From Clostridia bacterium (GTDB lineage: Bacteria > Bacillota > Clostridia > Christensenellales > CAG-1252): a DNA stretch of 49,886 bases. The DNA lies in contig JAGCXI010000048.1 of NCBI GenBank assembly GCA_017961365.1, positions 1 to 49,886 on the forward strand, in the 5' to 3' direction. The notes beneath the pieces were generated by a model. The model saw only the letters and a list, made by a program, of their open reading frames with translations, searched no databases and was not told the DNA's origin. How positions within the stretch are numbered: position 1 is the stretch's first letter; each line of letters opens with the position of its first letter. Positions 6,102 to 6,494 of the stretch are shown in pieces. A program made the position numbers and the translations under genes.

Positions 6102-6125
6102 AACCCGAGCGGATATAAAGCGGTT

Positions 6126-6222
6126 GAGATCCTTCAGCTCAGCTCCGCTTCGTTCAGGATGACGGAGAGGGGAGGGCGCATATCCCTCCATCTGTCATCC
6201 CGAGGCACTCGAGGGATCTCCA
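6126..6222. repeat. Inverted pair of intergenic repeat elements
   Basis: Two copies of a short element in opposite orientation: GAGATCCTT...AGGATGACGGAG at 6126-6168 and TGTCATCC...GAGGGATCTCC at 6193-6221. The termini are complementary, so the pair can form a long stem with a central loop. Sequences of this GGATGAC/GAGATCC type are familiar as dispersed intergenic repeats in many bacterial genomes. Copy number in this genome cannot be judged from the window. Confidence 0.6.
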
Positions 6223-6327
6223 CCTTGTTTCAAAAGCGGATGAGATGTTTCGGCAGGCTCGCTATTCGCCTACGGCTCTACGCGGACCTTCGGTGCAACA
6301 TGACGAAAAAATACATCTCCACCGCAA

Positions 6328-6494
6328 TGCACGCTCTGCGTGCAATTCATGCGCCGCAGGCGCAATTCACGCGCGCGTTGTGGTTCCCCGAAATGTCAAA
6401 GACATTTTGGGGTGTTGCGCGCAATTCACGACCGAAGGTCAATTCATGCACGACGTGCGATTCATGACCGAAGGTCAATTCGCGTGCCATCGGC
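6328..6494. repeat. Array of seven short hairpins separated by AATTCAY spacers
   Basis: Seven successive perfect or near-perfect palindromes with three-base loops: 6328-6344 (7-bp stem), 6351-6363 (5 bp), 6384-6410 (12 bp with G-T wobble, loop AAA), 6428-6438 (GACC/GGTC), 6446-6456 (GCAC/GTGC), 6464-6474 (GACC/GGTC again) and 6482-6494 (5 bp with wobble). The joints read ATTCAT, AATTCAC, AATTCAC, AATTCAT, GATTCAT and AATTCGC. Spacing and loop size are constant while stem sequence changes with its partner, so the structure rather than the sequence is regular. No ORF with good coding character covers it. Confidence 0.75.

Follow-up and report, generated by a model that had tools for sequence, protein, structure and literature searches.

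Heptamer-linked hairpin arrays in Clostridia and their association with genes for 23S rRNA-intervening sequence proteins

Anatomy of the hairpin array

The window analyzed here is a 49,886-nucleotide stretch of a Clostridia genome (contig JAGCXI010000048.1 of assembly GCA_017961365.1; a MAG of 88% completeness, henceforth termed G000), whose closest relative is designated G012. In the 3' flank of trpB, between a lipoprotein gene and a terminator-like site, the window carries an array of short hairpins. Direct reading of positions 6329-6483 gives six palindromic units joined by (A/G)ATTC(A/G)Y heptamers, and two further features lie upstream:

6114-6310, no strand assigned: mosaic of other palindromic repeats of the GATCCTTCAG..TTCAGGATGACG type, with blastn copies beside other G000 arrays
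6313-6328, plus strand: arm head ..ATCTCCACCGCAAT, a motif common to other G000 arrays and the G012 right arm
6329-6343, plus strand: hairpin 1, GCACGC-TCT-GCGTGC
6344-6350, plus strand: linker heptamer AATTCAT
6351-6363, plus strand: hairpin 2, GCGCC-GCA-GGCGC, with a GNA triloop
6364-6370, plus strand: linker heptamer AATTCAC
6371-6422, plus strand: compound unit, outer stem GCGCGC/GCGCGC around a nested palindromic repeat
6386-6412, plus strand: nested 12-bp hairpin, CCCCGAAATGTC-AAA-GACATTTTGGGG, an independent repeat recurring in other arrays
6423-6429, plus strand: linker heptamer AATTCAC
6430-6440, plus strand: hairpin 4, GACC-GAA-GGTC, the commonest stem in the genus
6441-6447, plus strand: linker heptamer AATTCAT
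6448-6458, plus strand: hairpin 5, GCAC-GAC-GTGC
6459-6465, plus strand: variant linker heptamer GATTCAT
6466-6476, plus strand: hairpin 6, GACC-GAA-GGTC
6477-6483, plus strand: degenerate terminal linker AATTCGC

A preliminary description of this sequence had listed seven hairpins joined by a fixed AATTCAY spacer at constant spacing. The units number six, although seven is a fair count of the helices, one unit being compound. The joint is mostly AATTCAY, but one copy reads GATTCAT and the last AATTCGC, and, at 52 nt, the compound unit makes the spacing less than strictly constant. The 12-bp hairpin, previously taken for an array member, is present but represents a nested repeat of another kind; it recurs in L049-L051, in the G004 arrays and in L309, where an array with a different linker precedes a gene for a 23S rRNA-intervening sequence protein (IVP). 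Membership of the 6114-6310 mosaic in the window element is uncertain, and we interpret the arm head as a putative junction between the arm and a missing centre or IVP gene. The window array consists of one arm only: the second, inverted arm is absent, and no IVP ORF was found near 6329-6483.

Compared with dinucleotide shuffles, the array folds with z-scores of -3.3 (plus strand) and -2.6 (minus strand) as single-stranded DNA (ssDNA), and of -5.2 (plus strand) and -2.8 (minus strand) as RNA. Segments bounded by joints are terminally palindromic (at least 3 bp) in 80% of cases in own-genus loci and 73% in public loci, versus about 3% after shuffling. These values and the own-genome copies described below are all beyond chance, confirming that the reported hairpin array is real. 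More than 80 different palindromic stems occur, nearly all distinct hairpins start with G and end with C, and the loops are constrained, in agreement with the earlier proposal that the folded form is kept and not the stem sequence.

The loop constraint was quantified on 559 non-redundant hairpins read on the AATTCAY strand. GNA accounts for 192 of 322 triloops and TNC for only 5; among 188 tetraloops, 119 are GNNA and only 2 TNNC. In non-array hairpins from the same loci, GNA and GNNA amount to approximately 10% and 9%, respectively. Array tetraloops are split evenly between GNRA and GNYA (58:61, versus 99:51 in control hairpins); a preference for GNRA in RNA would skew this ratio. Many of these hairpins are copies related to one another and cannot be counted as independent, but distinct sequences alone give the same picture (GNA 74 : TNC 5; GNRA 31 : GNYA 29). 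Divergent elements show the bias in each of their halves, even though the halves lie on opposite strands relative to any transcript. Very stable DNA mini-hairpins are formed by C-GNA-G and GNNA loops. The sequence GCGAAGC reportedly features in PMC4686876. We take the loop bias as a hint, short of proof, that the hairpins are selected or copied in the form of ssDNA. The first stem recurs as a third copy at the element centre, and this copy covaries with it (102 versus a shuffled mean of 74, 0/2000), which fits a long-range helix and templated copying alike. RNAalifold applied to 35 aligned elements recovered the structure only in part because hairpin lengths vary.

Copies and genomic contexts

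The array is not a unique sequence, the outcome that the preliminary description had named as refuting it: its own genome contains 28 array-pattern matches, compared with 0 for a reversed control. Matches to the window DNA occur in 10 of 13 genomes of the genus, including a copy of 99% identity in G012. Across the class, three-joint arrays are patchily distributed: 31 of the 391 genomes sampled have them, as do 24 of the 223 genera. Carriers are mostly draft MAGs in which the repeats end contigs, and the samples used in this work were partly selected for arrays. Among the matches listed, public-genome arrays stem mostly from gut Clostridia of ruminants, and relatives in other gut Firmicutes, guessed at in the preliminary description, do exist. 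Few of the viral contigs with array matches are clearly viral, and this set includes non-palindromic chance matches. A literature search on the linker sequence returned nothing relevant.

Array copies occupy unrelated sites in both orientations. Among nine genus members with a readable trpB flank, the window array is found in G012 only; comparison of these flanks revealed no clean empty counterpart of the window copy, the neighbouring genes being different in most genus members. The preliminary description had suggested that the array may be transcribed as a structured 3' tail, but a functional tail of the lipoprotein mRNA is not supported as the main reading, given the equivalent arrays at many unrelated sites and the sharing of the trpB-flanking copy with G012 alone. 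More generally, the array might be a structured RNA kept for its function, either as a 3' UTR stabilizer or terminator or as a Gut-1-like noncoding RNA arising from the array itself. The plus-strand RNA folding score and the position between a lipoprotein gene and a terminator-like site are in line with this idea, as is the appearance of Gut-1 among the best sub-threshold Rfam matches of the window array, at 18.4 bits (E 0.33) and below the Gut-1 gathering score of 50. However, no promoter-like site was found near the array, a GNRA excess is lacking, loop polarity in either half of a divergent element tracks the linker strand, and most genus members carry no array downstream of trpB, while copies elsewhere face either way. 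We therefore consider an RNA function unlikely; the window copy is probably inert or exerts only a mild effect on RNA ends.

Two recurrent contexts were noted in other genomes. In L067, L106, L155, L162, L209 and L325, arrays start at the 3' end of an apparent rlmD/rumA-type methyltransferase gene, the stop codon of which, with gene identity judged by eye, seems to be the TGA of the linker; this 3' end is one site used repeatedly in different genomes. In L268, L269, L289, L328 and L309, arrays lie directly 3' of the intrinsic terminators of tRNA genes, which suggests a target preference for hairpins or terminators.

Arrays beside IVP genes

At several loci, the array runs directly into a gene for a four-helix-bundle protein, the 23S rRNA-intervening sequence protein IVP (PF05635/TIGR02436), a family in which we know of no nuclease motif. 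IVP genes are present in 36 of 46 array-bearing genomes and relatives; the association is thus measured in a selected set, since the first survey drew on array carriers and genomes related to them. Within 300 bp upstream, at least five hairpins together with a 7-mer occurring at least four times were found for 73% of 48 PF05635 genes from loci fetched by Pfam search, compared with 5% of 114 control ORFs; rank tests on a 64-gene set, in which some loci were array-selected, gave p about 1e-19. The linkers differ by IVP gene and include AATTCAY, AATTTAGCT, ATATCACT, ATTTCAT, ACATCATT and others. The only IVP gene detected in G000 (C42), an 88% complete MAG, has a different linker. Related elements that contain an IVP gene are L310, L312, L260 and L067, and in G012:C118 and G004:C90 the gene lies exactly between divergent AATTCAY arrays. 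Two arrangements exist, one with the gene between the arms and one with the gene after both arms, so the element is not uniform. Literature searches for IVP in connection with heptamers or hairpins yielded a single directly relevant paper, on the Coxiella intervening sequence (PMC4990558).

Versions devoid of an ORF share the junctions of the gene-bearing elements. Paired arrays in G006 and G012:C11 contain no ORF but carry the same junction motifs, CATTRYGGAT..ATCCRYAATG; the latter pair (L076) includes a window-type arm. The right arm beside the G012 IVP gene begins with the same head motif as the window array (CTCATCCATAATG), and ORF-less pairs bear this motif on both sides. In linker, hairpin type and head motif, the window arm matches the G012 and G004 arms and the ORF-less pairs. 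Given its matching head ..ATCTCCACCGCAATG, we take the window array to be one arm of a copy lacking an ORF. Paired ORF-less arrays and solo arms look like MITE-style derivatives.

An occupied/empty difference was observed once. In G012, an IVP element lies between ahcY and an exonuclease-like gene downstream of it, whereas in G000 and G006 the two genes abut with nothing between them; with two genomes in the empty state, insertion in G012 is the simpler reading. Host sequence at the edges has also changed, including that at the ahcY end, and across these altered edges no target duplication was seen.

We think it probable that the window array belongs to a family of mobile elements centred on IVP and represents a solo arm without an ORF. 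A complete element in this genus would consist of a reversed linker-hairpin array, a ribosome-binding site, the IVP gene and a forward linker-hairpin array; gene loss would leave paired arrays, and further loss of one arm a solo array such as that of the window. The element would move as a unit and as DNA, with IVP recognizing the linker/hairpin arms. These arms may be recognized or copied as folded ssDNA in which the AATTCAY heptamers serve as constant joints, the palindromes being upheld by selection or templated correction, and ORF-less copies would be moved in trans. At the RNA level, by analogy to published 23S rRNA intervening sequences, base pairing between the inverted arms could create a stem that allows RNase III to cut the insert out.

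Purely mutational upkeep would dispense with any role of IVP in mobility: template switching or snap-back synthesis would turn quasi-palindromes into perfect ones, and recombination would spread them. The many different sequences that form perfect palindromes, the loops of a type very stable in ssDNA and the third stem copy at the element centre speak for such upkeep, but it leaves the constant linker, the IVP association and the presence/absence difference at ahcY unexplained, and we judge it distinctly improbable.

Relation to known repeats and elements

The proposed IVP-based family resembles several described systems, none of which it matches fully. Like MITEs, it comprises non-autonomous, ORF-less derivatives of a gene-bearing element; unlike them, it has no known transposase, and it ends in hairpin arrays where MITEs have simple terminal repeats. 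With REP, REPIN and BIME sequences it shares short palindromes in many copies within intergenic mosaics. Y1 transposases act beside hairpins, and a REP/BIME-type repeat mobilized by such a (RAYT/IS200-like) enzyme would account for a palindromic, intergenic array in a mosaic with other repeats. Yet REPs conserve the stem sequence while here the linker is conserved and the stems vary, and PF01797 was not found in 16 of 21 genomes, including the array-rich G000 (88% complete), G003 and G004, leaving this explanation with very little credibility. Even less can be said for a retroelement in which array RNA is reverse transcribed in trans and IVP acts like Avd of diversity-generating retroelements, a related four-helix bundle, as reverse transcriptase (PF00078) was not found in 31 of 34 genomes. 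The terms IVP and Avd occur together in PMC10053308. Both enzymes were considered as movers and rejected: as each was not found in most array-bearing genomes, neither is likely to be the general mover. One reverse transcriptase gene (G161:C9, 47839-49354) has a weak PF05635 match 560 bp away and is probably part of a diversity-generating retroelement with an Avd protein.

Among the closest counterparts of the array is Gut-1 (Rfam RF01706), a row of hairpins joined by a constant RTGAAAT linker. It likewise occurs in gut bacteria, was found in 30 of 32 of these genomes, and sometimes directly precedes an IVP gene (an IVP gene is present in 6 of 22 fetched Gut-1 loci). The window array is built alike, but its linker is RTGAATT. 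In 2010, Gut-1 was listed as a probable noncoding RNA from the human gut only, with neither a function nor a cultivated host assigned to it (PMC2864571).

In other classes and phyla, IVP genes are accompanied by few hairpins, but heptamer repeats remain. Period-7 runs precede 62% of 29 genes and 7/7 plasmid genes, other lags giving next to no signal. The control is weak, however: such runs were also scored for 29% and 56% of control ORFs in these short loci, which presumably adjoin the same repeats. Heptamers are inverted across the IVP gene on plasmids of Nostoc, Euhalothece, Monoglobus and Bernardetia. IVP genes were also found between cas1/cas2, hsdS/hsdR and drmD/pglX; on an Anabaena plasmid (L406, 684-1445), such a gene with AAAAAGT-type repeats lies between cas2 and cas1. 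Cyanobacterial heptanucleotide repeats (STRRs) constitute named families of 7-nt tandem repeats. We liken to them the heptamers that flank IVP genes on Nostoc, Euhalothece and Planktothrix plasmids, which lack hairpins in between.

Within apparent 23S rRNA sequence, L395 contains an IVP gene with TACTAGA-type heptamers and reads as a classical intervening sequence (IVS) with the same heptamer feature. The IVS of Coxiella burnetii has been described as a selfish element with terminal inverted repeats and tandem heptamers before its ORF, and its excision by RNase III is published, while the origin and mobility of 23S rRNA IVSs are described as still unclear (PMC4990558). The Coxiella IVS shares with the present elements a protein of the PF05635 family, terminal inverted repeats, tandem heptamers immediately ahead of the ORF and a presumed selfish character. 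In contrast to 23S IVSs, the elements described here sit between ordinary genes, perfect mini-hairpins separate their heptamers, and copies without an ORF or with one arm, such as that of the window, are dispersed.

We tentatively raise a broader possibility, in which we have clearly less confidence than in the reading of the window array: IVP proteins may be the mobility factors of a widespread, unrecognized class of transposable elements whose ends are heptamer-linked ssDNA mini-hairpins, with 23S IVSs, Gut-1 and the IVP-associated heptamers of other phyla all being forms of it. Gut-1 and 23S IVSs would then be tied to one element with arms, one candidate protein and an occupied/empty site, that is, to a testable transposition system. 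Such a system would also account for many unannotated palindromic repeats of gut Clostridia, often located at metagenome contig ends.

Element ends show one further recurrent feature. Upstream of the arrays in L260, L263, L266 and L283, they often carry TATAATGA with a TTGxxx box approximately 17 bp before it, a combination that likely constitutes a promoter, and other element ends bear CCTGACTTGACATGAG in place of TATAATGA.
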